Of a stretch of DNA of 64,000 nt, positions 31,228 through 61,240 are shown in pieces. The notes under the pieces are model-generated. The model was not told the DNA's origin and made no database searches. It was given only the letters and a program-made list of their open reading frames with translations. Origin of the DNA: Prochlorococcus sp. AG-355-P07 (lineage in GTDB: Bacteria > Cyanobacteriota > Cyanobacteriia > PCC-6307 > Cyanobiaceae); the NCBI GenBank assembly GCA_003280575.1, contig QCEN01000001.1:1-64000 (forward strand), in the 5' to 3' direction. The first letter of the stretch is position 1; each line of letters begins with the position of its first letter. The translations under genes were made by a program, and so were the position numbers.

Positions 31228-31301
31228 CGGGGCGTGGCGCAGCTTGGTAGCGCGGGTGCTTTGGGAGCACTAGGTCGCAGGTTCGAATCCTGTCGCCCCG
31301 A
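31228..31301 (+). tRNA. trnP: tRNA-Pro(UGG), intact; anchor of the cassette array
   Basis: The 74-base tRNA has acceptor arms CGGGGCG / CGCCCCG, D-arm GGCGCAGCTTGGTAGCGC, anticodon loop TTTGGGA (anticodon TGG) and T-arm CAGGTTCGAATCCTG. The discriminator base is A and CCA is not encoded. It is the only complete copy here; eleven copies of its 3' part follow over the next 30 kb. Confidence 0.97.
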
Positions 31302-31323
31302 CTCTTAAAAACCAAGTCATACT

Positions 31324-31349
31324 AGCGAGTTACCCAGACTCGCTTTTTT
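31324..31349 (+). terminator. Terminator after tRNA-Pro (left end of C1)
   Basis: GCGAGT and ACTCGC form a stem followed by a T-run. The same module follows several partial tRNA copies, twice with compensating base changes. Confidence 0.82.
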
Positions 31350-31359
31350 AATGAATAAA

Positions 31360-31393
31360 TTGACATCACTCTCTTGATGTCAGTTTGATGTCA
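31360..31393 (+). repeat. C1 left arm sites
   Basis: TTGACATCA (inverted, 31360-31368) is followed by TTGATGTCA at 31374 and 31385, 11 bp apart. Confidence 0.85.
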
Positions 31394-31466
31394 ATATATA
31401 TGCTTATCACTATGGTTTAATTAAAAAAAACATATAGGATTAAAAAAAAATTATTTTAAATCTGTT

Positions 31467-31916
31467 TTGAGAAAAATTTTATTTTTAATTTCAACTCTGT
31501 GTTGCATATTTGGGCTGACAAATGGCATTGCATTAGCTGGTCCTTTTACTGACGAATTTTCTAAATGCTTAGTTTTGTCTACGACCGAAAAAGATAAACA
31601 AAAACTTATAAGGTGGATAGTAAAAGTCTATTCAGATCATCCTAGTCTTAGCGATATATCTAAAATAAGCTCTAACAAAAAGTTAATGGTAGATAAAGAG
31701 ATAGGGGAAGTATTCACAAGTTTATTAGCTGAAAAATGCAGAGATAAAGCAATAAAGGCCATAGAGCTCGAGGGGGATATGGTCCTCTTTACTGCTTTCA
31801 GAACGTTAGGAGAAGTTGCTGGTCAGCAATTATTGAATGATGAAAATGTTCAAAATTCTCTTAATGAATTCACTAAATATGTTGACTATGAAAAATTAGA
31901 CTATATCAATGATTGA
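31467..31916 (+). CDS. Secreted helical protein in C1, unknown
   Basis: This 149-residue protein has a signal peptide (KILFLISTLCCIFGLTNGIALAG) and a mature part rich in charged helices, with two cysteines (FSKCLVL and AEKCRDK). The start is TTG at 31467; no ATG fits. It is the only gene of cassette C1, lying between the left and right arm sites. Function unknown; export to the periplasm or outside is inferred from the signal. Confidence 0.65.
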   Translation: MRKILFLISTLCCIFGLTNGIALAGPFTDEFSKCLVLSTTEKDKQKLIRWIVKVYSDHPSLSDISKISSNKKLMVDKEIGEVFTSLLAEKCRDKAIKAIELEGDMVLFTAFRTLGEVAGQQLLNDENVQNSLNEFTKYVDYEKLDYIND

Positions 31917-31941
31917 ATATTTTCTTGATTCCAAAAATGGC

Positions 31942-31961
31942 TTGATGTCAAATTGATGTCA
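31942..31961 (+). repeat. C1 right arm sites
   Basis: TTGATGTCA at 31942 and 31953, 11 bp apart, matching the left arm word. Confidence 0.87.
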
Positions 31962-32049
31962 TTTGCTATAAAAACAAATATTAAAAAATAAAATATTCTT
32001 TTAAAAACATTGCAAATACTATTGAGCGGGTGCTTCATTATTATTTCGA

Positions 32050-32095
32050 GTGCTTTGGGAGCACTAGGTCGCAGGTTCGAATCCTGTCGCCCCGA
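32050..32095 (+). repeat. Partial tRNA-Pro copy 1 (46 nt)
   Basis: Identical to the tRNA-Pro 3' part from the anticodon arm (GTGCTTTGGG) to the discriminator base. It lacks the acceptor 5' strand and the D-arm, so it cannot make a tRNA. Confidence 0.95.
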
Positions 32096-32117
32096 CTCTT
32101 AAAAACCAAGTCATACT

Positions 32118-32144
32118 AGAGAGTTTCCCAAACTCTCTTTTTTT
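32118..32144 (+). terminator. Terminator, left end of C2
   Basis: The stem AGAGAGTTT / AACTCTCT with loop CCCA is followed by a T-run. Compared with the GCGAGT/ACTCGC version, both strands changed together. Confidence 0.85.
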
Positions 32145-32169
32145 ATTGTTTACATTCTCACATGAGAAA

Positions 32170-32191
32170 GGGGCTCTAGGGGAGGCTCTAG
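32170..32191 (+). repeat. C2 left arm sites
   Basis: GGGGCTCTAG at 32170 and GAGGCTCTAG at 32182, 12 bp apart, followed at once by the palindrome ATCTTCGAAGAT. Confidence 0.75.
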
Positions 32192-32450
32192 GATCTTCGA
32201 AGATTCCCTAAATGGTGCGGGGTTCATACCCTTACAAAATTTTTTATAAACAATATTTCTTGCCTCCAGCCAATACAAAGTTTGGACAAGAAAGACTATT
32301 TTCTATAGAGGAACTCTCATTATCATCAGAAATATCACCTGAAAAATTTACACCCATAAGGATTACGTTTTTCTCTAAATACCTAAAAATTTTTTTATAG
32401 ACTTGTTCATATGTTTTGTATGGCATTAGTGTAGGTGTCTTATGAAGTTT

Positions 32451-33089
32451 TTACCATTCGCCATTTCGACAAAGATATTCAGCACCCGAGCCTGGGTCTA
32501 CAAAACAAGCTTTTTTACCTGTGTCGATGTTATATGAGAATGTAGGCAACTCGCTCTCATCTTCAGATACAAGCTTCATTTCTCCATTCGTTGGACAAAG
32601 AATAGTCGCACCATGTACTTTTCTATCGTTTCCTATATAGAATCCAGCAACATTCTTTTTCCTTGATTTATAACCATCAACTTCTGGAACAGTTATTAAA
32701 CCTTGTCCTTGATCTGCAATTTTTGCAGCACATTCTTTTACCATTGTTGCAAGTGTATTTGCAGCAGCACTAGCCTTAGCTTTTGGTCTAATATCAACCA
32801 CTGGTGGCACTAAGAGTAACGCAAAGAATAAAACTCCGAAGCCTCCTAAAAATACCGCACAACCTTTTAAACAACCATTTCTAATTGTCTCTCCCCTCAT
32901 TTGATCTAACGAGTAACGAGCAAGAAGTTTTCCTTCAGTAGAAATTAAGTGATAATAATTATCTAAGATTCCACTTTGTTCAGGATCACCATATGTACCA
33001 GTTTTTATCTGCCCTTTTCTTGAAGCTAATTCGTATGCCTTTGTATATAATTTCCATTCGCTATCTTTATCTTTGTTTTTCTTAGACAT
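32451..33089 (-). CDS. Membrane-anchored protein with pilin-like C-terminal region, in C2
   Basis: This 212-residue protein has a soluble N-terminal part of about 75 residues, one membrane span (GGFGVLFFALLLVPPVV) and an exported C-terminal part. That part resembles the variable region of cyanobacterial type IV pilins (AAANTLATMVKECAAK, ending GAEYLCRNGEW with four or more cysteines). Unlike a pilin it has no short prepilin leader with GF-TLIE. It may be a pilin-derived surface protein. It is the main cargo of C2, on the strand opposite to the tRNA. Confidence 0.65.
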   Translation of the reverse strand: MSKKNKDKDSEWKLYTKAYELASRKGQIKTGTYGDPEQSGILDNYYHLISTEGKLLARYSLDQMRGETIRNGCLKGCAVFLGGFGVLFFALLLVPPVVDIRPKAKASAAANTLATMVKECAAKIADQGQGLITVPEVDGYKSRKKNVAGFYIGNDRKVHGATILCPTNGEMKLVSEDESELPTFSYNIDTGKKACFVDPGSGAEYLCRNGEW

Positions 33090-33185
33090 AAAAAAAGAGA
33101 GTTTTATTCCACTAAGTTTAGATCTGCCTTCTTAAAAAACCATCAAATTTACTGACTTGGTTAACACAAGGTACTAGATCTCTCA

Positions 33186-33210
33186 GGGGGGATCTGTAGG
33201 GGGATCTAGG
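33186..33210 (+). repeat. C2 right arm sites
   Basis: GATCT units at 33191 and 33203 in a G-rich context (GGGGGATCTAGG), 12 bp apart. The palindrome ATCTTCGAAGAT follows at 33231. Confidence 0.75.
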
Positions 33211-33336
33211 ATCTATAAAGACCTTATAAAATCTTCGAAGATATTCCCATTTTGAGTCTCAAACTTGTTCCACCCTCTGCAAATAATTAAGGCTATAACT
33301 ACGATTTTGAGGAAATTGCCTTTGATAGATCGAGTC

Positions 33337-33379
33337 CTTTGGGAGCACTAGGTCGCAGGTTCGAATCCTGTCGCCCCGA
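33337..33379 (+). repeat. Partial tRNA-Pro copy 2 (43 nt)
   Basis: Identity to tRNA-Pro starts at CTTTGGGAGCAC, three bases later than in most copies, and runs to the discriminator base. Confidence 0.95.
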
Positions 33380-33401
33380 CTCTTAAAAACCAAGTCATAC
33401 T

Positions 33402-33428
33402 AGAGAGTTTCCCAGACTCTCTTTTTTA
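33402..33428 (+). terminator. Terminator, left end of C3
   Basis: The stem AGAGAGT / ACTCTCT with a T-run, the same compensated variant as in C2. Confidence 0.83.
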
Positions 33429-33452
33429 TTGTTTACATTCTCACATGAGAAA

Positions 33453-33474
33453 GGGGCGCTAGAGGGGGCGCTAG
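33453..33474 (+). repeat. C3 left arm sites
   Basis: GGGGCGCTAG at 33453 and 33465, 12 bp apart. Confidence 0.82.
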
Positions 33475-33590
33475 CATCTTCGAAGATTCTGAAAAGGTGC
33501 TTAATTTGCAAGATTGAAATAAGAAATAAAAGTGTACTTAAATCGGTGCAAGTAGTAAGCGTTTCATCTAATAACTATAAAAAGTTCTTG

Positions 33591-33842
33591 TTAGCGAAAA
33601 AACTCTTTGATTTGACTTTCAGTAACAGTTTTAAAGTCTGGACAACTATTTTCACTTAAGCCTTGGGAATTATTGTTTACGATACACGCACAAGTTCTTT
33701 CAATACCTCTTGCCTCTACAAAAAGTCTTCTATTTGATGAATCATCTATGAAGTCTGCTATACATTCATCCTCTAGCTGTTCGAGATAACCAGAATGAAC
33801 TGGAAAAATAAAAAAAGTCAACAAGACAAATAATAGCTTCAT
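33591..33842 (-). CDS. Small secreted cysteine-containing protein in C3
   Basis: This 83-residue protein has a signal peptide (MKLLFVLLTFFIFPVHSG) and four cysteines in the mature part (DECIAD, TCACIV, NSCPDF). The C-x-C plus C pattern recalls the core-genome protein at 6964-7257. It is downstream of the larger secreted protein gene of the same cassette. Function unknown. Confidence 0.6.
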   Translation of the reverse strand: MKLLFVLLTFFIFPVHSGYLEQLEDECIADFIDDSSNRRLFVEARGIERTCACIVNNNSQGLSENSCPDFKTVTESQIKEFFR

Positions 33843-33910
33843 ATTTAAACGATTTTTAAAACGTATTTCTTTTAATGATAGTTAAGAAGTGATTCTAAGA
33901 AATTGAAACT

Positions 33911-34321
33911 TTAAAAGCATGAAAAACTACTAACATGCCTACCAGAATAACCTTGACAGTTTGCTGGTCTTTGAGAATCATACGTAGGTTGTTGAATAAT
34001 TGTTGAAGTAGGAGTTGAATCCCTATAAATTACTTTTGGATTATTTCGATTTAATAATTCATGTCTTCTGGCTTCTCTATCCAACCTATCTTCTTCTCTT
34101 CTGGATTCTTCCTCCCTATATTCTGCAGCGGCTTCAAGACCCTCTGCCAATTTGAGCCAAAATCCCTTTTTATTTTTCTTTTCATTTTTACTATTAGCTT
34201 TCACACAACCCATATAATCAGAAACATCTTTGCAAAGGTTATGAACTGCAGGATCCACTCCTGCATTAACAGCAGTAGGTAAAGCGAGGGCAGCTATTAA
34301 AGGTATTAAAAATCTTTTCAC
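33911..34321 (-). CDS. Secreted charged coiled-coil protein with shared leader, in C3
   Basis: This 136-residue protein starts with MKRFLIPLIAALALPTAVNA, nearly the same signal peptide as the protein at 58923 in cassette C10. The mature N-terminus VDPAVHNLCKDVSDYMGCVK resembles that of the TPR protein in C7. A strongly charged helix (YREEESRREEDRLDREARR) and a tail with three cysteines follow. The start codon is GTG. Its 5' leader resembles those in C7, C10 and C12. Function unknown. Confidence 0.65.
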   Translation of the reverse strand: MKRFLIPLIAALALPTAVNAGVDPAVHNLCKDVSDYMGCVKANSKNEKKNKKGFWLKLAEGLEAAAEYREEESRREEDRLDREARRHELLNRNNPKVIYRDSTPTSTIIQQPTYDSQRPANCQGYSGRHVSSFSCF

Positions 34322-34330
34322 AAAAAAAGG

Positions 34331-34362
34331 AGCTAATTGACCTTTATTCTAATTCGACTTTC
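34331..34362 (-). promoter_or_regulatory. Shared leader/promoter element upstream of the C3 secreted gene
   Basis: On the minus strand the sequence has AGTCGAATTAGAATAA followed by AATTAGCTCC, matching the leader of the gene at 63247-63540 and, more loosely, those at 41341 and 58881. Confidence 0.5.
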
Positions 34363-34416
34363 CTAAAAAACTATCAAATCTCCGACCTGTTTAACAGAGG
34401 GCACTAGGTCGTAGAG

Positions 34417-34438
34417 GGGGCGCTAAGGGGGGCTCTAA
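34417..34438 (+). repeat. C3 right arm sites
   Basis: GGGGCGCTAA at 34417 and GGGGCTCTAA at 34429, 12 bp apart. Confidence 0.78.
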
Positions 34439-34562
34439 GTTCTATAAACATATTGCATAATCTTCGAAGATTTAGCAATAAGCTGTCTCAAACTCGTTCC
34501 ACCATCTACAGTTAGTCTAGGCTATAACTAAAGTCTCAAGGTTTTCTTAAAAATAACGCCCA

Positions 34563-34608
34563 GTGCTTTGGGAGCACTAGGTCGCAGGTTCGAATCCTGT
34601 CGCCCCGA
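34563..34608 (+). repeat. Partial tRNA-Pro copy 3 (46 nt)
   Basis: Exact copy of the tRNA-Pro 3' part, from GTGCTTTGGG to the discriminator base. Confidence 0.95.
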
Positions 34609-34630
34609 CTCTTAAAACCAAGTCATACTA

Positions 34631-34656
34631 GCGAGTTACCCAGACTCGCTTTTTTA
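34631..34656 (+). terminator. Terminator, left end of C4
   Basis: Stem GCGAGT / ACTCGC followed by seven T, like that after the intact tRNA-Pro. Confidence 0.82.
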
Positions 34657-34665
34657 ATGGAAAAA

Positions 34666-34699
34666 TTGACATCACTCTCTTGATATCAGTTTGATGTCA
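34666..34699 (+). repeat. C4 left arm sites
   Basis: TTGACATCA (inverted, 34666-34674), TTGATATCA at 34680 (one base changed) and TTGATGTCA at 34691, with 11-bp spacing between the direct pair. Confidence 0.83.
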
Positions 34700-34719
34700 A
34701 TTTTCAATATTCCTCAAAC

Positions 34720-35082
34720 TTATTTGTTTAATTTGGCAATTTTAAATTTTCTTCTGGCTAACCATTCTTTTCTATCTCTTACAACATTTGAAGATGTTTC
34801 AAGAATTAATCCCATAACAAGTAGAAAATTAGCAAATTGAAGTATAGGGTCTAGTCTCCAGCCTTGAAAAAATAATATTCCTCCAACCAAAAGAGAACCA
34901 ATAAATCTTCCAATTCCCATCAATAATATACAAATCAAACGTTTAATAGAAGCTTTATTATTTTTTGTTCTTCTATCAAGCAAAAAAATTATTTGAGCAA
35001 TTGATGCCGGTGCAGAAATTACTCCAAAGATAGCGAGAACTATTCCCGTTATTGATGCCCAATTAAGGGAGGCGTTGACCAT
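34720..35082 (-). CDS. Ycf66-like membrane protein in C4
   Basis: This 120-residue protein starts MVNASLNWASITGIVLAIFG and carries the block GGILFFQGWRLDPILQFANF, which I recognise from the Ycf66 family conserved in cyanobacteria and some plastids. It has three hydrophobic segments. The middle region (RRTKNNKASIKRLICILL) differs from typical Ycf66. Family function is unknown. Its presence as array cargo is odd; a core copy elsewhere in the genome is possible but not visible here. Confidence 0.65.
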   Translation of the reverse strand: MVNASLNWASITGIVLAIFGVISAPASIAQIIFLLDRRTKNNKASIKRLICILLMGIGRFIGSLLVGGILFFQGWRLDPILQFANFLLVMGLILETSSNVVRDRKEWLARRKFKIAKLNK

Positions 35083-35183
35083 TTTTGAACTTTATTCTTA
35101 ATTATATTTTTAATGTCAAATGAAAAAATTATATTGCACACACAAGGATTATAGAAAATAATAAGATTTAAATTCTTAATTTC

Positions 35184-35903
35184 TTGAATTTAAAAAAATC
35201 AAATAAATCTCAAGAAGGGTTTTCATTAATCGAATTAGTTGTGGTTACTGCAGTGTTAGCCACATTGTCTGCTATTGCAATTCCTCGTTTTATGGGGATT
35301 ATAAATAATGCAAGATTACAAGGTTCTAAACAGAATTTATCTAATTGTGCAAAAGAATGTATTTATGATTCAAATAAGAAACCTGAATTAGGATCGATTC
35401 CAGGAGTAATCTTTGAAGGTGGAAAAGATTGCAAATCAATAGCAAAGGCAACTATTAATGAAGAATGTTGTATCTCGATAAATTTAGAAACCTTGAAAAA
35501 GAATGCAAATAATATATGGCCAAGCAATTATTCAGCTTGTGATTTGACTTCTTGCGAAACGATATCTAAAAGTGAAATTAGTGGTAATAGTGAAAGTAGT
35601 GGTAATAGTGAAAGTAGTGGGGGTGGGAAAGGAAATGAAAATGATGATACTTGCAATGGGAATCCAAACGTAACCAAAGATGGGTTTTATAAAGACCCTT
35701 CAGCAATTGGCCAAAATTGTGTTGGTTATGGAGGAATAACAAATGTAAAAAATTATAATTTCACATATTGCAGCTGTGATAGACCTTGTGATCAATATGG
35801 GCAACTATATGCTTGTGGTACTCAGGAAGAAATTAACGAGACATTAAAAACTTTTTGTGAAGAAACTGGTTGGGGAAAGAATGCGCAGGTTCCTTATTGT
35901 TAG
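35184..35903 (+). CDS. Type IV pilin-like protein in C4
   Basis: This 239-residue protein has a short basic leader and the prepilin cleavage motif (EG|FSLIELVVVTAVLATLSAIA, with Glu at mature position 5), so it should be processed by prepilin peptidase and built into a pilus or pseudopilus. A cysteine-rich middle, a tandem Ser/Gly/Asn repeat (SGNSES units, about 35578-35620) and a cysteine-rich tail (CDRPCDQYGQLYACG) follow. The start is TTG at 35184. It is probably a minor pilin. Confidence 0.8.
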   Translation: MNLKKSNKSQEGFSLIELVVVTAVLATLSAIAIPRFMGIINNARLQGSKQNLSNCAKECIYDSNKKPELGSIPGVIFEGGKDCKSIAKATINEECCISINLETLKKNANNIWPSNYSACDLTSCETISKSEISGNSESSGNSESSGGGKGNENDDTCNGNPNVTKDGFYKDPSAIGQNCVGYGGITNVKNYNFTYCSCDRPCDQYGQLYACGTQEEINETLKTFCEETGWGKNAQVPYC

Positions 35904-35922
35904 TGATGTCAAATTGATGTCA
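35904..35922 (+). repeat. C4 right arm sites
   Basis: TGATGTCA at 35904 and 35915, 11 bp apart. The first copy begins right after the pilin stop codon. Confidence 0.85.
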
Positions 35923-36010
35923 TTCTCTTAAAAATTTAGAATTACTTTTAATTAATAACTTAAGAAGTATTGATAATACTAAAGACGTAGTGCTCGCTTT
36001 GGGGTGTCGA

Positions 36011-36056
36011 GTGCTTTGGGAGCACTAGGTCGCAGGTTCGAATCCTGTCGCCCCGA
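36011..36056 (+). repeat. Partial tRNA-Pro copy 4 (46 nt)
   Basis: Exact 3' copy. An imperfect duplicate of the anticodon region (GCTTTGGGG) lies about 20 bases before it. Confidence 0.95.
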
Positions 36057-36080
36057 CTCAATCAAAACCAAGTCATAGTA

Positions 36081-36106
36081 GCGAGTTTCCCAGACTCGCT
36101 TTTTTA
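36081..36106 (+). terminator. Terminator, left end of C5
   Basis: Stem GCGAGT / ACTCGC followed by a T-run. Confidence 0.82.
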
Positions 36107-36115
36107 TTGAAAATA

Positions 36116-36152
36116 TTTGTCCACGCATAAAGTGGACAGATAGTGGACAAAT
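36116..36152 (+). repeat. C5 left arm sites
   Basis: TTTGTCCAC (inverted, 36116-36124), GTGGACAGAT at 36132 and GTGGACAAAT at 36143, direct spacing 11 bp. Confidence 0.87.
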
Positions 36153-36227
36153 CATCATTTCACTAAATTAATACTGTGTAGACTTTTTGAAATATTGAGA
36201 ATATAAAAATATAAATGAATTTTTTCT

Positions 36228-37367
36228 GTGAAAGGATCTATAAAGCAAATAAAAAATGAAGGCTTCTCGTTAATTGAATTGATAGTAGTTATTGCAATTT
36301 TGATAATAATTATTGTTTTTGGGCTTCCATTTTTTTTAAGACTTGTAAATATGGCTCGATTTGTAAGTTCAAAATCAACTCTTAATGAAAACTACATTGG
36401 ATGTATTAATAATCCAAGTCGCTCAATAAATAATCCATTTATACCTGGAGTAACCTTCAATTCAAGTAACTGTTCTGGATTGATGTCAGCCAATATTGAT
36501 AATAAATGTACAATCTCTATGAATATGGCTACAGGAGAAAAAGTCGGTTGGAGTAATTCCTATGATTCTTGTGCAGCATCTTCCAATTTCGCATCAAACA
36601 GAAATGATAATTCCCAAAATTCCCAGAAAAAAAATGCGACTACTTTTGATGGGAATAAATCTTTGTCCGGAGAATTTACTGGCCTAGAAACCACCGAAAG
36701 AGGATTTTATTACATGGATATTACTCCTGATAAATTAGAAACTGGTGAAAAAATGGCTCTTTTAATACCGGGAGGTGAGCATGACCTAGAGCTTTTTATT
36801 GTTGGGACCAACGAAAAATTAGCCCCAGGGACAATCGATAAGAATCAAGAATATACAGATCAACTAAATAAGGGTAATTTCAAAATATGTATGTCTGGAG
36901 GCTCAAGTAGCTGGGTTAATGGAAGGCAATCTCCAACAGTTTGTTCTCGGATTTTACCAACTGAGATTGCGAATAGTATTGGTATTAGCTATTCCAATGG
37001 AAGTTATGATGTAAATTATTCTGGAGGTAGTATGTCTGGAGCTGGTGGCTTTGCTCCTGGAACAGGTAATTCTAATCAAACCACAATAGGTAAATTTGAT
37101 CAAAGTACCAAAGAAAAAATCCAAGCTCAATATAATAAGGGTTATGGTTTAGGATCTGCAAACGATAAATTTTCAAACTTTAAGGGCAGTATCAATACTT
37201 TAAGACATGTTGATAAAACTAATATGGACATGGGCAAACCACCTTGGAATAATTCCGAAGTAAGTAAAAGTGGTGGAAATCTTTATAATTTCTTTGTTGA
37301 TGGAGGAAAGTCCACTCCAGGGGATACCTATAGTGGTGAAGATTGGGAGAACCAAAAAGGATTTTAA
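36228..37367 (+). CDS. Large type IV pilin-like protein in C5
   Basis: This 379-residue protein has the prepilin motif EG|FSLIELIVVIAILIIIIVFG after a short basic leader; the start is GTG. The first 110 mature residues resemble the C4 pilin (a C-I-N-N region, PGVTF and a cysteine, then D-N-K-C-T-I-S-M), after which a long Gly/Ser/Asn-rich extracellular domain follows. At 379 residues it is much longer than a major pilin, so it is more likely a minor or tip pilin or adhesin. Its C-terminus lies only a few bases before the right arm. Confidence 0.8.
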   Translation: MKGSIKQIKNEGFSLIELIVVIAILIIIIVFGLPFFLRLVNMARFVSSKSTLNENYIGCINNPSRSINNPFIPGVTFNSSNCSGLMSANIDNKCTISMNMATGEKVGWSNSYDSCAASSNFASNRNDNSQNSQKKNATTFDGNKSLSGEFTGLETTERGFYYMDITPDKLETGEKMALLIPGGEHDLELFIVGTNEKLAPGTIDKNQEYTDQLNKGNFKICMSGGSSSWVNGRQSPTVCSRILPTEIANSIGISYSNGSYDVNYSGGSMSGAGGFAPGTGNSNQTTIGKFDQSTKEKIQAQYNKGYGLGSANDKFSNFKGSINTLRHVDKTNMDMGKPPWNNSEVSKSGGNLYNFFVDGGKSTPGDTYSGEDWENQKGF

Positions 37368-37370
37368 AAA

Positions 37371-37391
37371 GTGGACAAATAGTGGACAAAT
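37371..37391 (+). repeat. C5 right arm sites
   Basis: GTGGACAAAT at 37371 and 37382, 11 bp apart. Confidence 0.88.
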
Positions 37392-37479
37392 GTTGCTTAT
37401 ATTGTCTGGACAAATCACGAAGAATCAGGCAATAAATTAGCTATAGCTTGAAAACCCAGTGCTGCATTAGAGCTATTTA

Positions 37480-37525
37480 GTGCTTTGGGAGCACTAGGTC
37501 GCAGGTTCGAATCCTGTCGCCCCGA
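37480..37525 (+). repeat. Partial tRNA-Pro copy 5 (46 nt)
   Basis: Exact 3' copy; it is followed by TCAGTCATACCAGTAAGTC and not by the terminator module. Confidence 0.95.
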
Positions 37526-37577
37526 TCAGTCATACCAGTAAGTCTCAGCTAATAATATATTTACCATAAAAAGTAGA

Positions 37578-37597
37578 GTGCCCAAAAAGTGCCCAAA
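37578..37597 (+). repeat. C6 left arm sites
   Basis: GTGCCCAAA at 37578 and 37589, 11 bp apart. Confidence 0.87.
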
Positions 37598-37659
37598 GAC
37601 ATATATATATTGTGATTATTTCTTGTACGAACTAAATTATTAAAAGACAAGCCACGAAA

Positions 37660-39294
37660 ATGTTTGATGAATACTCAGCAAAAAGTGTAAGAAAATTAGT
37701 AGATACTTTTTTCTCTTTGCAATGGTGTAGAGATAATTTGGTCGTTCCACTATATGAAGAGCAAAGCAGTAACCAAGTAATTATTGCAATAGCAAATTAT
37801 TCTTATCTTGGGACAATTGCTTCTCCTATTCAAGAAAGACTAAATCAGTCAGGTAAAGAGTGCATTTTTATTCAAAAAACAATAGAAGAGGTACAAAAAA
37901 TTCTAGATTTAGCCTCTGAGGAAAGATTTATAAGTGGAGACTCAATAGAACAATTGCAATTTGATGATGATGCAGTGTTAGAAGCTATTAAAGAAACTTC
38001 TGACAACTCAGATGAAAGTTTTATATTTGAATTTGATGATGATAATGAGGGAGAGCTTTACGAAGATGAGACTCTAGATTTAGCAGTTGAAATGTGCGAG
38101 AGCAAAATACAAAAAGCAGCAGGCACAATTCTTATAAATTCAAGAAAAAGGAATATTTCAGATATTCATATTGAACCAATGGAAAATAATTACTTAGTAA
38201 GAGTTAGGAAAGATGGAGTTATGCATAATTTTATGAGCTTACCCAGAAAGGCTGGAGTACAATTAGTGGCTTGTTTAAAAAATATGGCAATGATGGATAT
38301 TGCCGAAAGAAGGGCAAGTCAAGATGGGAAAATTATTAGAAAATTTGAGGGTAATAAAATTGAATTGAGATGTTCAACAGTTCCAAATTCAAATGGAGAG
38401 AAGATGGTTCTAAGACTTTTAAATAGTGATGCATCAACATTAAGTCTTGATTTCTTAATTCATATTGAAAGTGTTCGTGAAAACTTTAGAAAAATGATGA
38501 GTTCCATTAATGGAATTATTATTGTCTCGGGACCTACAGGATCTGGGAAATCAACTACATTAGCAGCTACCTTGAGAGAAATGGATAGTGGCGATACTAA
38601 TATAGTTACCGCAGAAGATCCCGTGGAGTATAAGTTAGGCGGTGGTATATCACAATCACAGGTTAATAGAGCAAAAGGGCAAACATTTGCCATGCTTCTC
38701 AGAACATTTTTAAGGCAAGATCCTGATGTAATACTTATTGGTGAGACTCGAGATCCTGAGACAGCGGAATCAGCTATGGATGCAGCTGAAACTGGTCATT
38801 TAGTTTTCACAACACTGCATGCCAATTCATCTACTAGTTCATTAACTAGATTACTTGATATGGAAGTCCCAAAATATAAATTAAACGCAAGTTTAAAGGG
38901 TGTATTAGCACAAAGATTGATAAGAAAAGTTTGCACAGGATGTGGAATTAAAAGAGGAGTTTCTGAGAGTGAATCTATTCGTTTTGAAATTGAGGAAGGT
39001 ACTCCTGTAATGTACTCCAATGCTTTATCCGCTGAAGAAAAATCAAAAAGAAAGAGAGAGAATACATTATGTCCAAAGTGTTCCGGCATAGGTTATGAGG
39101 GAAGAATTGGAGTTTATGAATTACTAGAAGTAAATAGAGATATCCAAATCGCGATTGCTGAAAAGAAACCTCTTGAAGAAATTGAAAATATTGCAGTTAA
39201 TAAAAATAATATGCTTACTCTAAGAAAATATGGTCTTGAATTAATTAAAGAGGGTCTAACAACTTTTTCAGAATTAGAGAGGGTTATTCAATAA
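37660..39294 (+). CDS. pilB: PilB/GspE-type secretion and pilus assembly ATPase, in C6
   Basis: This 544-residue cytoplasmic ATPase would power assembly of a type IV pilus or type II-like secretion pilus. It has an N-terminal domain, Walker A GPTGSGKST near residue 290, the Asp box (TAEDPVEYKL), Walker B DVILIGETRDPETAE, the His box THLHAN-like TTLHANSSTS, and a zinc-finger region with paired cysteines (CTGCG and CPKCSGIGYEGR). All catalytic motifs look intact. It is slightly shorter than typical PilB. The pilin-like genes in C4 and C5 are possible substrates, but no PilC-type platform protein is seen in the window. Confidence 0.92.
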   Translation: MFDEYSAKSVRKLVDTFFSLQWCRDNLVVPLYEEQSSNQVIIAIANYSYLGTIASPIQERLNQSGKECIFIQKTIEEVQKILDLASEERFISGDSIEQLQFDDDAVLEAIKETSDNSDESFIFEFDDDNEGELYEDETLDLAVEMCESKIQKAAGTILINSRKRNISDIHIEPMENNYLVRVRKDGVMHNFMSLPRKAGVQLVACLKNMAMMDIAERRASQDGKIIRKFEGNKIELRCSTVPNSNGEKMVLRLLNSDASTLSLDFLIHIESVRENFRKMMSSINGIIIVSGPTGSGKSTTLAATLREMDSGDTNIVTAEDPVEYKLGGGISQSQVNRAKGQTFAMLLRTFLRQDPDVILIGETRDPETAESAMDAAETGHLVFTTLHANSSTSSLTRLLDMEVPKYKLNASLKGVLAQRLIRKVCTGCGIKRGVSESESIRFEIEEGTPVMYSNALSAEEKSKRKRENTLCPKCSGIGYEGRIGVYELLEVNRDIQIAIAEKKPLEEIENIAVNKNNMLTLRKYGLELIKEGLTTFSELERVIQ

Positions 39295-39317
39295 TAAATG
39301 AAAAATAATTTTAAATT

Positions 39318-39941
39318 ATGAAAAAAATTCTTTCAAAATTCAAACTTAAATGGTGGAGCTGGGAAATAGATACAGTAAAACTTCTTCCTTTTATAATTCT
39401 TGTCTTGGCCTTCTTGCCTATCCTTCCTTATGAGAAAAAAGATGGGCAATTAATTTCTGTAATGGGATTTGAGGCAAAAGAAAATAACTTCTACTTAAGA
39501 CTTTCAGATTTTAGGATGTTAGATACTTCAGAGAAAGAAAGTAATACCTCAAACACTGATCAAATAAAAAATAAGCCCGATTCTGGAAATGTTATGGCTT
39601 TAATAAGTTCATACCTTGATAAAAATGGAGATATTGACAAATACAAGAAATATCTAGAAACCACAAATTACAGTGAAAATCTGAAGCAATGCCTAATTTT
39701 AAGAAACATGTTAATGTCTAATCTCGTAATTGATAGTGAAATACAAAACCTTCTTTATCTTTATATCCCAAGCCCAGTGCCAGCCATATGGTTTTCTAGG
39801 TTTATCATCGTCCAGATTATCGAATTAATAGCAGAGACATACTACACAACTGAGATGCTTCAGAAAGGTTCAAAAAAATGCGGCGAATTTGAGCATCTTT
39901 GGCCATCTGAAAAATATCTTGATCTAACCTTCGAAGAATAA
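39318..39941 (+). CDS. Membrane-anchored protein beside the pilus ATPase, unknown
   Basis: This 207-residue protein has a basic N-terminus, one membrane span (LLPFIILVLAFLPILPY) and a helical exported part with two cysteines (KQCLIL, KKCGEF). It starts 23 bases after the ATPase gene on the same strand, so both are probably transcribed together, suggesting a pilus- or secretion-related role. I do not recognise the family. Confidence 0.7.
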   Translation: MKKILSKFKLKWWSWEIDTVKLLPFIILVLAFLPILPYEKKDGQLISVMGFEAKENNFYLRLSDFRMLDTSEKESNTSNTDQIKNKPDSGNVMALISSYLDKNGDIDKYKKYLETTNYSENLKQCLILRNMLMSNLVIDSEIQNLLYLYIPSPVPAIWFSRFIIVQIIELIAETYYTTEMLQKGSKKCGEFEHLWPSEKYLDLTFEE

Positions 39942-39950
39942 TTTTAATTA

Positions 39951-39971
39951 GTGCCCATAATGTGCCCATAA
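39951..39971 (+). repeat. C6 right arm sites
   Basis: GTGCCCATAA at 39951 and 39962, 11 bp apart. Confidence 0.87.
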
Positions 39972-40055
39972 ACAATTTTTGAGTTCTACATAAGCATTCT
40001 TAAACACACAGAATTAGTTGATAGCAACGTAAGTCTAAGTTATAGGCTTCTTCTT

Positions 40056-40105
40056 GCGGGTGCTTTGGGAGCACTAGGTCGCAGGTTCGAATCCTGTCGC
40101 CCCGA
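40056..40105 (+). repeat. Partial tRNA-Pro copy 6 (50 nt)
   Basis: Identity starts four bases earlier than in most copies (GCGGGTGCTTT) and ends at the discriminator base. Confidence 0.95.
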
Positions 40106-40141
40106 TCAGTTATAGCAGTAAGTCTCAGCTAATACCTAATT

Positions 40142-40179
40142 CACACAAATAATTGCTTCACGCAAAACTCACGCAAAAC
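40142..40179 (+). repeat. C7 left arm sites
   Basis: CACGCAAAAC at 40159 and 40170, 11 bp apart, preceded by a degenerate CACACAAA at 40143. Confidence 0.85.
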
Positions 40180-40242
40180 TAATATCCATATATTTTTATA
40201 ACTACAATTCACGATATTAAATCAACTTAAAATAGTGAATAA

Positions 40243-41319
40243 TTACCAGCTTTTTGAACAATTTGTTCCGTACATCGACCAGCCATCAGTGATAGATGCA
40301 TATTTGGTCATTACGTCATAATCTAAAGATTTCCAAGCTTTATCAGCTTTTTTCCAATTTTTGCAGGCAGTCGCAAATTTATTAAGCCAGCTGTAGGTAT
40401 CCCCTTTCCAGGTATGACCCGTAAGTTTTACAAAATCCAGTTCAAAATTCTTTGATGGATTCTTCAAATTTTCTACTTCCTCAAGAGTTGGTGCATTTTC
40501 TATAAGTAAATCAAAATCAGATAGAGATGAATTTAGAAATTCTTTAGATAATACTTTATTTTTTATTGCCCTAATATTTTTGTAATCTGCTCCTAGATTA
40601 TATTTAACCCTTCCTCTAGATCCATATAAATAGTGCAAATATCCAAAAGGAAATAGTCTTTTGTAAAAAGGGTTGAAAGTATCTTTGTAAGATTCAATTG
40701 ATTGCGAAAAATCATTAATAGAAGCATTATTAAATTGAATCACTTTTTGGAAATCAGAATCTTCATAGTATTTACCCGATAAAAAATTATTTGCTTTTCC
40801 TCTAAAAAGGTAAGCCAATGAATTTTCAGGATTTAATTTTATTGATTTATTCAAATCTTCAAGACCTGATTCAACTTGGTCGAGATAAAAAGACTTCAAA
40901 TAACCGAGTGTCATATATTTATCAGAATCTTGATTATCTAATAAAACTGATTTTTGAAGATCCAGTAATGCATTTTTATAATCTTGCATCTCAAGAATTT
41001 TCAGAATGCCTCGAAAAAAATAAGGATCTGATTCATTTGGGTTAGCTCTTATGGCATCATCTAAATAATTTATTGCAATAACATAGTCATTTTCATCTAA
41101 GTATTTAGATTTCGCGATATCTAATAATTCTGAAGAATTTTTATTTTTTTTATTAATTTTCTTTGAATTAATCACCTTTTTCTTTGTTGACATTTCCTTA
41201 ACACATCCAGAAAAATCTTTGGCTTTTAAACAAAACTCCGCAATTTCCCTATCGGTAGAAGCATTAACCGAAAAAGGTAATAGAAAGACAGCTGAAAATA
41301 GAAATAAATATTTTTTCAT
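40243..41319 (-). CDS. Secreted TPR-repeat protein in C7
   Basis: This 358-residue protein has a signal peptide (KKYLFLFSAVFLLPFSVNA) and a short N-terminal module STDREIAEFCLKAKDFSGCVKEMS that resembles the one in the C3 secreted protein. Several TPR units follow (for example ANPNESDPYFFRGILKI and LNPENSLAYLFRGKA). TPR domains bind other proteins; an envelope scaffold role is possible. The C-terminal part (WKGDTYSWLNKFATACKNW) also fits TPR-like helices. Confidence 0.75.
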   Translation of the reverse strand: MKKYLFLFSAVFLLPFSVNASTDREIAEFCLKAKDFSGCVKEMSTKKKVINSKKINKKNKNSSELLDIAKSKYLDENDYVIAINYLDDAIRANPNESDPYFFRGILKILEMQDYKNALLDLQKSVLLDNQDSDKYMTLGYLKSFYLDQVESGLEDLNKSIKLNPENSLAYLFRGKANNFLSGKYYEDSDFQKVIQFNNASINDFSQSIESYKDTFNPFYKRLFPFGYLHYLYGSRGRVKYNLGADYKNIRAIKNKVLSKEFLNSSLSDFDLLIENAPTLEEVENLKNPSKNFELDFVKLTGHTWKGDTYSWLNKFATACKNWKKADKAWKSLDYDVMTKYASITDGWSMYGTNCSKSW

Positions 41320-41340
41320 TGGTAAGGAAGCTTTTCAAAA

Positions 41341-41362
41341 TTATTTTAAATCGACTGTCAAT
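41341..41362 (-). promoter_or_regulatory. Shared leader element upstream of the C7 TPR gene
   Basis: On the minus strand TTGACAGTCGATTTAAAATAA begins with a consensus -35 hexamer; the downstream part resembles the leader at 58881. It lies between the arm sites and the gene start. Confidence 0.5.
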
Positions 41363-41370
41363 TAAAAACT

Positions 41371-41391
41371 CACGCAATATTCACGCAAAAC
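41371..41391 (+). repeat. C7 right arm sites
   Basis: CACGCAATAT at 41371 and CACGCAAAAC at 41382, 11 bp apart. Confidence 0.86.
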
Positions 41392-41472
41392 AACTAATTA
41401 ATGGATTATTTAATAAAAATAAGTTAAGCAAATTTATTGTGAATACTTGAGTCTAAAAAACTTATTAATGTT

Positions 41473-41522
41473 GCGGGTGCTTTGGGAGCACTAGGTCGCA
41501 GGTTCGAATCCTGTCGCCCCGA
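41473..41522 (+). repeat. Partial tRNA-Pro copy 7 (50 nt)
   Basis: Same 50-nt form as copy 6. Confidence 0.95.
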
Positions 41523-41562
41523 TCAGTTATAGCAGTAAGTCTCAGCTAATAATAAATAAATT

Positions 41563-41599
41563 GCACCCAAAAAAGCTTGCACCCAAAATGCACCCATAA
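41563..41599 (+). repeat. C8 left arm sites
   Basis: GCACCCAAAA at 41563, GCACCCAAAA at 41579 and GCACCCATAA at 41590; spacings 16 and 11 bp. Confidence 0.86.
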
Positions 41600-41694
41600 T
41601 TAAGATTTACCATGCTAATTATCAACTATTTGAAATAATTTATTGTGATAAAAGAATATGAAACTAATATGTGAAGAAGTTTTTGCCTAGCTGA

Positions 41695-42381
41695 ATGAGA
41701 AAAAAATCTGCCATTTTTACTTTTATCCTCCTATTTGCATCATTATTAGAACTGTCAGCAGTATATGCTGGCACTTATCAATCAACCTGTCCTGCAAAGA
41801 AATTTGCAAAAATAGAAGCCGAAATAAGAAAAAACTTCAAGCCAAGAAGAAAAAAGGAGAATGGACCTCCTGATACTGTGGAAAGAAGAATAAAAAAAGC
41901 TTTTAAAAAATGCAGAGTTCCCATTGAAATAACTGGAGAAGAAATAAGTTCACCTGACGTATCAATACCAGTTACAAGAGTGACCTCATGGGTAAAAAGC
42001 GGTTATTCAAATAGGAGAGTAAATACTGGGGTGACAACAACAATTCTTTTTGGACCTTTAGGAGCATTAGGCTTTCTAAGTAAAAAACACAGGTATAGTT
42101 TTATTGTTAAGGGGTTTGACGCCGATGGCAAACAAGCAACAGTTCAAATTGATCTTTTTAAAAAACCAGATATAGAAAGACTTACTCAAGAATTACTATT
42201 AATCACAGGTCTAACTATGGGTGAAAAGAGAAGTATTGAAAAAATAAGAAAGCTAGAAAGCGAGGGATTTGATTCTTCTTTAAAAGAAGAGCCAGAGGAA
42301 GAAGAAATAAGAATGGAACCCTTGAAGAAAGCAGATGAAACGCGTCTAGATTTAGAAAAGAAGCAAAATTATATGCCTTAA
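41695..42381 (+). CDS. Secreted protein with charged tail in C8, unknown
   Basis: This 228-residue protein has a signal peptide (FTFILLFASLLELSAVYAG) and a mature part with two cysteines (QSTCPAKK, KKCRVP). A glycine-rich hydrophobic segment (TTTILFGPLGALGFLS) might insert in a membrane, and a strongly acidic C-terminal region (EEPEEEEIRMEP) follows. It is the only gene of C8. Function unknown. Confidence 0.7.
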   Translation: MRKKSAIFTFILLFASLLELSAVYAGTYQSTCPAKKFAKIEAEIRKNFKPRRKKENGPPDTVERRIKKAFKKCRVPIEITGEEISSPDVSIPVTRVTSWVKSGYSNRRVNTGVTTTILFGPLGALGFLSKKHRYSFIVKGFDADGKQATVQIDLFKKPDIERLTQELLLITGLTMGEKRSIEKIRKLESEGFDSSLKEEPEEEEIRMEPLKKADETRLDLEKKQNYMP

Positions 42382-42400
42382 GAATTCTCAAAATAATAAA

Positions 42401-42420
42401 GCACCCAAAACGCACCTAAA
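42401..42420 (+). repeat. C8 right arm sites
   Basis: GCACCCAAAA at 42401 and GCACCTAAA at 42412, 11 bp apart; one base differs in the second. Confidence 0.82.
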
Positions 42421-42506
42421 ACATATGATTCTAGTTTTAATTAGGACACACCTATTTCTCTAAAAGTACTGATAGCAACATAAGTCTCAGTTATAGCTTC
42501 GTTTGT

Positions 42507-42556
42507 GCGGGTGCTTTGGGAGCACTAGGTCGCAGGTTCGAATCCTGTCGCCCCGA
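42507..42556 (+). repeat. Partial tRNA-Pro copy 8 (50 nt)
   Basis: Same 50-nt form, followed by CCATTTAAAACCAAGTCATACTAG and the terminator module. Confidence 0.95.
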
Positions 42557-42579
42557 CCATTTAAAACCAAGTCATACTA

Positions 42580-42603
42580 GCGAGTCTCCCAACTCGCTTT
42601 TTT
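42580..42603 (+). terminator. Terminator, left end of C9
   Basis: Stem GCGAGT / ACTCGC with a short loop and a T-run. Confidence 0.8.
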
Positions 42604-58740: not shown

Positions 58741-58783
58741 CTTTGGGAGCACTAGGTCGCAGGTTCGAATCCTGTCGCCCCGA
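58741..58783 (+). repeat. Partial tRNA-Pro copy 9 (43 nt)
   Basis: Identity begins at CTTTGGGAGC, the same short form as copy 2, and the preceding bases GATAGATCGAGTC are also shared with copy 2. Confidence 0.95.
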
Positions 58784-58806
58784 CCATTTAAACCCAAGTT
58801 ATACTA

Positions 58807-58831
58807 GCGAGTTTCCCAGACTCGCTTTTTT
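58807..58831 (+). terminator. Terminator, left end of C10
   Basis: Stem GCGAGT / ACTCGC followed by a T-run. Confidence 0.82.
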
Positions 58832-58842
58832 AATGCAAAATA

Positions 58843-58877
58843 TGACCACTCGAAATGTGGTCAAATAGTGGTCAAAT
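58843..58877 (+). repeat. C10 left arm sites
   Basis: TGACCAC (inverted, 58843-58849), GTGGTCAAAT at 58857 and 58868, direct spacing 11 bp. Confidence 0.88.
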
Positions 58878-58880
58878 TTG

Positions 58881-58912
58881 TTGACAGTCGATCTAAAATA
58901 AGCGTTATTATT
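58881..58912 (+). promoter_or_regulatory. Promoter-like leader of the C10 secreted gene
   Basis: TTGACAGTCGATCTAAAATA begins 3 bases after the last arm site and is shared in part with leaders in C7, C3 and C12. TTGACA with TTATTA about 18 bases later fits a sigma-70-type promoter. Confidence 0.5.
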
Positions 58913-58922
58913 TCCTTTTATT

Positions 58923-59537
58923 ATGAAAAGATTTTTAATACCTTTATTAGCTGCTCTCGCATTACCTACTCCTGTCAATGCTAATTATCTTTGCACAATC
59001 GACGAAGTTGTCTGGGGCAAAAGTAGAAAATTAAAAGAATATGAACAATTTAATATCATTGCATTTACTTCAACTAATAGGCTTGATGAGGATGGTGAAA
59101 AATTGAAGAAGGGTTTTATATACATCCTAGATGAAAATAAGAATAAATATAAATATAAAGGGGATTTGAATGATGATGATAGATTTTTCTATTCAAGAAC
59201 TTATGAATATGAAAACAATCCCTTTGAAGTAATTTATGAGATTGGCGATTTTGATGGTTCAGGAGGAGAATTTAAAAGAACAGTAAAAAATTTAAAATTT
59301 AAACCAGGCAGTGATTTTTATGACGAAAAAACTGCCAAAGCTGTATTAAGTTATTCACCAGAATCGCGCACTGGATTAGTACATAAAGGAACATGTAAAA
59401 GACGCACGTATGATCTTGATAAAAAAATTTATTATTGGAGTGAGATTACAGGAAATGAATCAGAATCGGAATCAGATCTAGATCTTTTTAAAATGCTTGG
59501 AGAAGGATTACAAAAAACCGACTTGTTTAAAAACTAG
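58923..59537 (+). CDS. Secreted protein with shared leader, in C10
   Basis: This 204-residue protein has the signal peptide MKRFLIPLLAALALPTPVNA, nearly the same as in the C3 protein, but an unrelated mature part. That part is rich in charged and aromatic residues (DENKNKYKYKGDLNDDDRFFY; YEIGDFDGSGGEFKRTVKN) with two cysteines (YLCTID, GTCKRR). Its stop codon TAG lies at the edge of a second copy of the terminator module. Function unknown. Confidence 0.72.
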   Translation: MKRFLIPLLAALALPTPVNANYLCTIDEVVWGKSRKLKEYEQFNIIAFTSTNRLDEDGEKLKKGFIYILDENKNKYKYKGDLNDDDRFFYSRTYEYENNPFEVIYEIGDFDGSGGEFKRTVKNLKFKPGSDFYDEKTAKAVLSYSPESRTGLVHKGTCKRRTYDLDKKIYYWSEITGNESESESDLDLFKMLGEGLQKTDLFKN

Positions 59538-59560
59538 CGAGTTCCCCAGACGCGCTTTTT
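59537..59560 (+). terminator. Orphan second copy of the terminator module in C10
   Basis: GCGAGT and ACGCGC form an imperfect stem (one mismatch) with a T-run directly after the stop codon. The module normally follows a tRNA copy, but none is present here. Confidence 0.65.
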
Positions 59561-59573
59561 TATTACAAAATAA

Positions 59574-59607
59574 GACCACTCGAAATGTGGTCAAATAGTG
59601 GTCAAAT
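59574..59607 (+). repeat. C10 right arm sites
   Basis: GACCAC (inverted) at 59574, GTGGTCAAAT at 59587 and 59598, 11 bp apart; nearly the same as the left arm including its flanks. Confidence 0.88.
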
Positions 59608-59695
59608 GTTACTTAAATTGTCCGGACAAATCACGCAGAATTAAGCAAAAAATTTGCTATAGCTCGAAAACCTAGTGCTGCACTAGAGCAAATAA

Positions 59696-59741
59696 GTGCT
59701 TTGGGAGCACTAGGTCGCAGGTTCGAATCCTGTCGCCCCGA
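59696..59741 (+). repeat. Partial tRNA-Pro copy 10 (46 nt)
   Basis: Exact 3' copy, followed by the second-type flank CAGTTATAGCAGTAAGTCTC. Confidence 0.95.
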
Positions 59742-59777
59742 TCAGTTATAGCAGTAAGTCTCAGCTAATACCTAATT

Positions 59778-59814
59778 CACGCAAATTATTGCTTCACGCA
59801 AAACTCACGCAAAG
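59778..59814 (+). repeat. C11 left arm sites
   Basis: CACGCAAAT at 59778, CACGCAAAA at 59795 and CACGCAAAG at 59806; spacings 17 and 11 bp. Confidence 0.85.
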
Positions 59815-59897
59815 ATGATTTTTATAGCCTGACGCCATACAAAAAAAGCCGAAAGAACGACCCACAGCGAAAGTGCCAAAGATCGTTTAGCCCTTTT

Positions 59898-61091: not shown

Positions 61092-61190
61092 TTTTAAAGT
61101 GTTCTACTTATATCCCTTAAATTATTATTATTTTTTTTGCAAGGCAACATTTAATTTGAGATTTAAAAAATAGCTAATAGCCTTATTCTT

Positions 61191-61240
61191 GCGGATTCTT
61201 TGGGAGCACTAGGTCGCAGGTTCGAATCCTGTTGCCCCGA
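61191..61240 (+). repeat. Partial tRNA-Pro copy 11, degenerate (50 nt)
   Basis: It has the 50-nt form but reads GCGGATTCTTTGGG and GTTGCCCCGA, so it carries substitutions in the anticodon stem and acceptor strand. It is the last copy in the window. Confidence 0.9.

Follow-up and report, generated by a model that had tools for sequence, protein, structure and literature searches.

How does a single transfer RNA (tRNA) gene come to be followed by a long tandem series of small gene cassettes, and what do the sequences at the cassette ends stand for? The question is raised by the first 64 kb of a 266-kb contig of Prochlorococcus sp. AG-355-P07 (genome size 1.52 Mb), a stretch referred to here as the window. 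An array starts there at an intact proline tRNA gene, tRNA-Pro(TGG), and runs through perfect copies of its 3' part that end at 32095, 33379, 34608, 36056, 37525, 40105, 41522 and 42556. After a 16-kb stretch, further copies end at 58783, 59741 and 61240 (one mismatch), and those beyond the window are more degenerate. The elements are bounded by these copies, with the intact tRNA at one end. Very probably, they are tRNA-targeting elements mobilised by integrases, most of them lacking an integrase of their own, with arm-type sites matched to the N-terminus of the integrase. The evidence is read from sequence and consists of matched ends, a linkage of flank and word, agreement between integrase clade and word class, divergence of the integrase N-terminus where words change, and cargoes whose ends have been exchanged.

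Three cassettes with a common left flank

Cassettes C6, C7 and C8 lie side by side. The flank TCAGTYATASCAGTAAGTCTCAGCTAATA, here called flank II, stands directly after the tRNA copies ending at 37525, 40105 and 41522. A short word occurs doubled at both ends (GTGCCCA in C6, CACGCAA in C7, GCACCCA in C8), and the right copies match tRNA-Pro over 50 nucleotides (nt). Each cassette has one or two cargo genes, and none has its own integrase. The features are as follows (aa, amino acids).

31228-31302, forward strand: intact tRNA-Pro(TGG) gene (ARAGORN), integration target and start of the array
37480-37525, forward strand: 46-nt tRNA-Pro 3' copy, right end of C5 and left border of C6
37526-37554, forward strand: C6 left flank, flank II, no terminator hairpin
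37578-37595, forward strand: C6 left doubled word GTGCCCA (37578-37584 and 37589-37595)
37660-39294, forward strand: C6 cargo, T2SSE/PilB-type secretion ATPase, 544 aa (Pfam T2SSE, 1.7e-105)
39318-39941, forward strand: C6 cargo, 207-aa protein, no Pfam match, also found elsewhere beside flank-II copies
39951-39968, forward strand: C6 right doubled word GTGCCCA (39951-39957 and 39962-39968)
40056-40105, forward strand: C6 right end, 50-nt tRNA-Pro copy, half-site TTGCGGGTGC
40106-40134, forward strand: C7 left flank, flank II
40159-40176, forward strand: C7 left doubled word CACGCAA (40159-40165 and 40170-40176)
40243-41319, reverse strand: C7 cargo, 358-aa protein, weak tetratricopeptide-repeat (TPR) matches
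41371-41388, forward strand: C7 right doubled word CACGCAA (41371-41377 and 41382-41388)
41473-41522, forward strand: C7 right end, 50-nt tRNA-Pro copy
41523-41551, forward strand: C8 left flank, flank II
41563-41596, forward strand: C8 left words, GCACCCA three times (at 41563, 41579 and 41590)
41695-42381, forward strand: C8 cargo, 228-aa protein, no Pfam match
42401-42418, forward strand: C8 right words, GCACCCA and GCACCTA
42507-42556, forward strand: C8 right end, 50-nt tRNA-Pro copy

The ATPase gene of C6 is missing from the 1.2-kb GTGCCCA cassette of L210, while both ends and the next gene are common to the two; C6 looks like a GTGCCCA cassette with an acquired ATPase gene. A related gene occurs elsewhere in the same genome (C2:114263-115889, 71%). 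The adjoining cassettes C4, C5 and C6 encode two pilin-like proteins and this T2SSE/PilB-type ATPase (35184-39294). The C7 cargo has a homologue in a cassette with a different word, GGGATCT (L181:8013; 79% over 1050 nt).

The same word at both ends of a cassette

Arrays were collected from about 70 genomes of the genus, and tRNA copies were located by a plain mismatch scan, with each pair of consecutive copies counted as one cassette. This gave 72 arrays and 291 cassettes, 206 of them after dereplication. The same doubled word was present at both ends of 118 of 139 cassettes, whereas 2000 shuffles gave 6.4 on average and never more than 16; matched ends are thus far beyond chance. In an unsupervised test, 75 of 141 cassettes had the same doubled 6-mer close to each end, and shuffled pairings gave 5.85. 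This test ran on the first scanner, a best-match regular expression that skipped degenerate copies and inflated mosaics.

The words were grouped into classes. Class A includes GATGTCA, GTGGACA, GTGGTCA, GCCGTCA, GCCAACA, GCGGACA and others; class B, GGTAGCT, GGAGCTA, GGCTCTA, GGCGCTA, GAGCGCT, GGGATCT and GGGCACT; class C, GTGCCCA, CACGCAA, GCACCCA and TTCCCTC; class D, TGAGCGA, TAGCGAT and GGGCGAT; class E, TGCAGTC; and class F, GTGGGAA, TGGTATA, ACGAAAG and others. Word class is tied to the left flank; besides flank II, a hairpin-type flank I was distinguished. At the left end, class-C words accompany flank II in 37 of 37 cassettes and flank I in none of 111; at the right end, they are found in 24 of 29 flank-II cassettes and in 1 of 105 flank-I cassettes.

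Sites that have not been integrated are seen in viral contigs that match the tRNA-Pro core. They contain a single copy of the core that is flanked on either side by the same doubled word, as in GTAATCTAG (L233, L259), GCGCACAT (L240) and CTGCTCAAAA (L253). As judged by sequence only, arm-type repeats thus stand on both sides of the core in related viral contigs, and this layout is the arrangement that the proposed mechanism predicts before integration. The viral contigs contained no exact match to the flank-II 39-mer. Five viral sequences (L231, L263, L239, L261 and L255) share the T-arm of tRNA-Pro, diverge from the Prochlorococcus gene further upstream, and again carry an identical doubled word to the left and right of the core; the layout therefore extends beyond cyanobacterial elements.

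These observations are consistent with a cassette being an integrated mobile element of the kind that targets tRNA genes with a tyrosine integrase. The left end (tRNA copy, flank and doubled word) and the right end (doubled word, half-site and tRNA copy) would then be two parts of a single attachment site that is continuous in the circular form. The ends of one integrase family would be marked by flank II, class-C words and a GCGGGTKC half-site, and flank I would be common to three others.

Integrases and the words beside them

Some elements have a tyrosine recombinase of about 390-475 aa as their last gene, reading leftward, with its start beside the right words. The Pfam (PF00589) scores of these array integrases are weak or below threshold, which would fit a deep-branching recombinase such as that of tycheposons, but the catalytic residues R, K, R, H and Y do not vary across the alignment. 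Complete elements, which C6-C8 are not, thus carry a tyrosine integrase with its catalytic residues next to the attachment site. When the word classes were placed on a tree of 68 integrases, five changes were sufficient for six classes, which is the minimum, whereas shuffled labels required at least 25. This count includes the reassignment of L161 from class D to class F, because its word GAGCGAAA fits the latter; without it, there are six changes. Two class-C integrases were found, in L199 (GCACCCA) and L200 (TTCCCTC). The L200 integrase, of 412 aa, belongs to a complete element of 7.2 kb that has flank II, a 50-nt right copy and the word TTCCCTC at either end. The same integrase protein occurs in Prochlorococcus marinus MIT 9401, in a complete flank-II element (L200/L214); in named genomes, the only class-C integrase relatives were this one and one distant fragment.

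In five loci (L064, L071, L073, L074 and L157), a 462-aa integrase gene lies just upstream of an intact tRNA-Pro gene and reads away from it, sometimes within an array, as though a complete tRNA gene were part of some elements.

Near-identical integrases that accompany different words diverge sharply only in the N-terminal 60-75 residues or so, and the divergence along the sequence changes abruptly. In class A, pairs with different words (L190/L191 and L058/L181) differ by 57-69% in the N-terminal domain, and the remainder is 95-97% identical. In class B, the N-terminal difference is 19% for L191/L207 (remainder again 95-97% identical) and 30% for L202/L205, where it is 11% elsewhere. Integrase pairs with the same word have no N-terminal excess (disjoint pairs, p=0.002). 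Divergence was counted from a conserved W, excluding words that lie inside over-long reading frames. A predicted model of a class-C integrase has a helix, three strands and a helix at residues 9-78. The N-terminal domain apparently reads the words, which would make the doubled words arm-type sites bound by the cognate integrase.

The words could instead be sites of another factor, such as an excisionase or a replication initiator, that is inherited together with the integrase. Position and covariation are all that is shown for the words, and other short motifs, such as TTATAGC, recur between the words and the core in several classes. However, the words change with the integrase's own N-terminal domain while the rest of the protein hardly changes, and paired arm-type repeats flanking a transfer-messenger RNA (tmRNA) core have been described in the phage attachment site (attP) of cluster K mycobacteriophages (PMC3203893). 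Another factor is therefore improbable, though it fares best among the alternatives.

Cassettes as units and ends as modules

Strict clustering gave 25 cassette families present in at least two arrays. Their left neighbours differ in 13 of 14 testable families, and their right neighbours in all 16. Of 16 shared cargo families, nine are associated with several words; as only same-word cassettes were compared, both ends differ in each of the nine. The clearest case of a re-ended cargo comes from seven arrays, in which a 4.3-kb cassette has TAGCGAT ends, flank I and a 50-nt copy; in L090, its cargo (95% identical over 3.5 kb) stands between GGGCGAT ends, with a different flank and a 46-nt copy. 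Cargo is also found with both flank II and flank I (L058/L081 and L212), and L057 and L207 have similar flanks but differ in their words at each copy.

As the ends come together only in the circular form, a single exchange there would be the simplest account. The pair of ends, together with the integrase N-terminus in complete elements, would be exchangeable as a module between cargoes. A broader proposal, for which the balance appears even, is that many integrase families use one tRNA gene and are kept apart by a word code carried at the two ends; the N-terminus would be exchanged in the circular form together with the entire attachment site, half-site and both words included, as one module, and cargo, with or without an integrase, would be re-addressed to another helper in one step.

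Could the array instead grow and reshuffle mainly by homologous recombination between tRNA copies, old insertions having left the words behind as inert passengers? Such recombination has ideal substrates in the identical copies, the genome lacks an array integrase, and in 9 of 139 cassettes the word class differs between the two ends, as fusions would give. Nevertheless, homologous recombination as the main process is unlikely: it leaves unexplained the same doubled word at both ends of most cassettes, the tracking of integrase clades and N-termini by the words, and the joint change of both ends on the same cargo.

How cassettes without an integrase might move

Most cassettes have no integrase; a same-word integrase encoded elsewhere probably moves them in trans. 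Mobilisation by a visiting helper would be the likeliest account for them.

Several points weigh against the proposed link between cassettes, words and integrases. The word list was drawn up by inspection before the class counts, a problem from which the unsupervised 6-mer test is free. Neither of the two class-C integrases has the C6 or C7 words, GTGCCCA and CACGCAA. The genome of the window has no array-type integrase, which means that no helper is present now, and 111 of 119 dereplicated same-word cassettes lack an integrase or integrase remnant. The N-terminal contrasts comprise five disjoint pairs, two of them strong, and the words of one pair (L161/L192) may be variants of one word family. 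Finally, in a fold search of the Protein Data Bank, the similarity to Xer, Tn1549 Int, Cre and integron integrases was confined to the catalytic and core-binding parts; the overall fit was poor, and no arm-binding domain was matched.

Away from the array, a cobO-like gene adjoins the gene of a conserved tyrosine recombinase of 389 aa that is akin to the array integrases (G000 C9:34020-34439, L022). It is the sole homologue of the array integrases in the genome of the window and recurs in most genomes of the genus that were searched. This resident enzyme could in principle move all cassettes by recognising only the tRNA core, in a manner similar to integrons. Such a role is quite unlikely, as a single reader leaves unexplained the two dozen words and the matched ends, as well as the words beside element-borne integrases that differ with their N-termini; in addition, the cassette ends are tRNA copies with paired words and not attC sites.

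What the length of the right copy means

In the survey, right copies of 46 and 50 nt numbered 70 and 9 with flank I, and 7 and 9 with flank II (Fisher p=2.3e-4), an association that is significant but loose. It is loose because class D, mostly with flank I, likewise has 50 nt as its most frequent length, and because class-C right copies are 50 nt in nine cases and 43 nt in eight. Inside a given class, the length depends on one or two bases of the half-site that precedes the anticodon loop: GCGGGTGC gives 50 nt, GCGGGTTC gives 43 nt and GCGAGTGC gives 46 nt. Length is thus a coarse readout of the element's own half-site and not of the crossover point. What the elements have in common with the tRNA runs from its anticodon loop to its 3' end, and the extra 3-7 nt belong to the elements' own half-site left of the loop, which varies inside each word class. 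Copy length would then reflect nothing but this half-site.

Further parts of the array in the window are these.

31302-37525, forward strand: C1-C5, flank-I cassettes, right copies of 46, 43, 46, 46 and 46 nt
31302-37525: words of C1-C5, in order GATGTCA, GGCTCTA/GGGATCT, GGCGCTA, GATGTCA and GTGGACA
42579-42598, forward strand: terminator-like hairpin of flank I, after the last copy of the C6-C8 run
58784-59741, forward strand: C10, flank I, GTGGTCA at both ends, right copy of 46 nt
59742-61240, forward strand: C11, flank II, left words CACGCAA, right copy of 43 nt (GCGGATTC), YadA-like cargo; it breaks the 50-nt rule

The preliminary description of this DNA had given C6-C8 a flank without a hairpin, the words GTGCCCA, CACGCAA and GCACCCA and a 50-nt right copy, and had given C1, C3, C4, C5 and C10 a hairpin-type left flank and a 46-nt copy; all of this was found as described. 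From it, covariation of left flank, arm class and copy length had been concluded. When tabulated, flank and word never mix at the left end, so this part stands, while flank and length do mix and are associated only loosely. The cassettes that break the 46/50 rule had been omitted: C2 and C9, with flank I, a 43-nt right copy and a GAGTCC half-site, and C11. The two proposed types are also too few, as there are at least six word classes with about two dozen words, and flank I is common to three of them. Entry of each cassette as one unit is borne out by the matched ends, by neighbours that differ elsewhere, by the complete flank-II element in MIT 9401 and by the single-copy joints in viral contigs.

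The view that the two end types have different crossover or homology boundaries in the tRNA draws on the association of length and flank, but it was rejected as highly improbable, since one or two half-site bases switch the length within a class and, in the unintegrated viral sites, the match to the tRNA begins only at about the loop. The unit is the pair of ends and not a shifted crossover.

Other features of the array

A stem-loop with a T-run follows the left copy in C1, C3, C4, C5 and C10, as found by a scan for C1-C5 and by reading the sequence for C10. Besides the hairpin listed above, terminator-like hairpins of flank I lie at 31324, 32118, 33402, 34630 and 36080; the hairpin scan of the window array found none after flank-II copies. 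A depletion of flank II directly behind the intact tRNA gene, as if the loss of the terminator were costly, was weak (3-4 of 41). Degradation of the copies rises with distance from the start of the fetched arrays (rho 0.34), as would be expected if insertion favours the intact tRNA gene.

C9 (42557-58783, 16 kb) starts like a class-B GGTAGCT element and ends with GGGATCT words. Its first 5.8 kb are 93% identical to a complete 8.1-kb GGTAGCT element (L054:5037), and it looks like a fusion, or an element minus its right end. The gene in C11 (59901-61091) encodes a YadA-like adhesin with head repeats and a membrane anchor. The motif TTGACAGTCGATCTA, with up to two mismatches, occurs four times in the window (41347, 58533, 58881 and 63571), compared with 0.11 expected. 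It lies mostly near the starts of cassette genes, recurs beyond the window, and is possibly a shared promoter or regulatory site.

Comparison with known systems

The closest named elements are the tycheposons, which reportedly integrate at tRNA genes in Prochlorococcus islands, have a divergent tyrosine recombinase and cargo, and remodel the islands. The array described here likewise combines tRNA-gene integration with cargo. It consists mostly of tandem units of 0.6-3 kb without a recombinase and has a readable two-ended word code, in which it may differ from tycheposons (compare PMC10872708).

In cluster K mycobacteriophage attP sites, core and arm are separated by a stem-loop terminator, and in close phages the arm sites differ along with substitutions in the integrase N-terminus (PMC3203893). 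The hairpin of flank I has the same position. Cluster K is one phage family with small shifts, whereas about two dozen words occur here on one tRNA; strong N-terminal divergence between near-identical integrases and cargo units with the same sites but no integrase are further differences.

Additive flexible genomic islands gain and lose cassettes at a tRNA gene and contain repeats of the tRNA 3' end (PMC10872708, for a tRNA-Lys island; PMC5217437). In the parts of these two papers that were consulted, no description of an end code or of a link to integrases was found, unlike the situation here. Similar to integrons, the array has tandem cassettes of one or two genes that are swapped between arrays at a fixed site and would be moved in trans. 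Unlike integrons, the repeats are tRNA copies and the paired words are cassette-specific; no attC sites were recognised at the cassette ends, and neither the window nor the DNA adjoining the array yielded an integron integrase. A two-ended word code that spans many families on one tRNA, is common to integrase-less cassettes and is accompanied by reassortment of cargo and ends was not found described.

Significance

How genes are gained and lost without obvious vectors in the most abundant photosynthetic organism is an open question. If the words are arm-type sites, a readable end word would assign a cassette to an integrase specificity and so predict the helper able to move it; on that basis, mobilisation in trans could be put to a direct test. 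The N-terminal divergence between near-identical integrases amounts to a natural experiment on arm-site recognition, and matched pairs of domain and word could support a recognition code.

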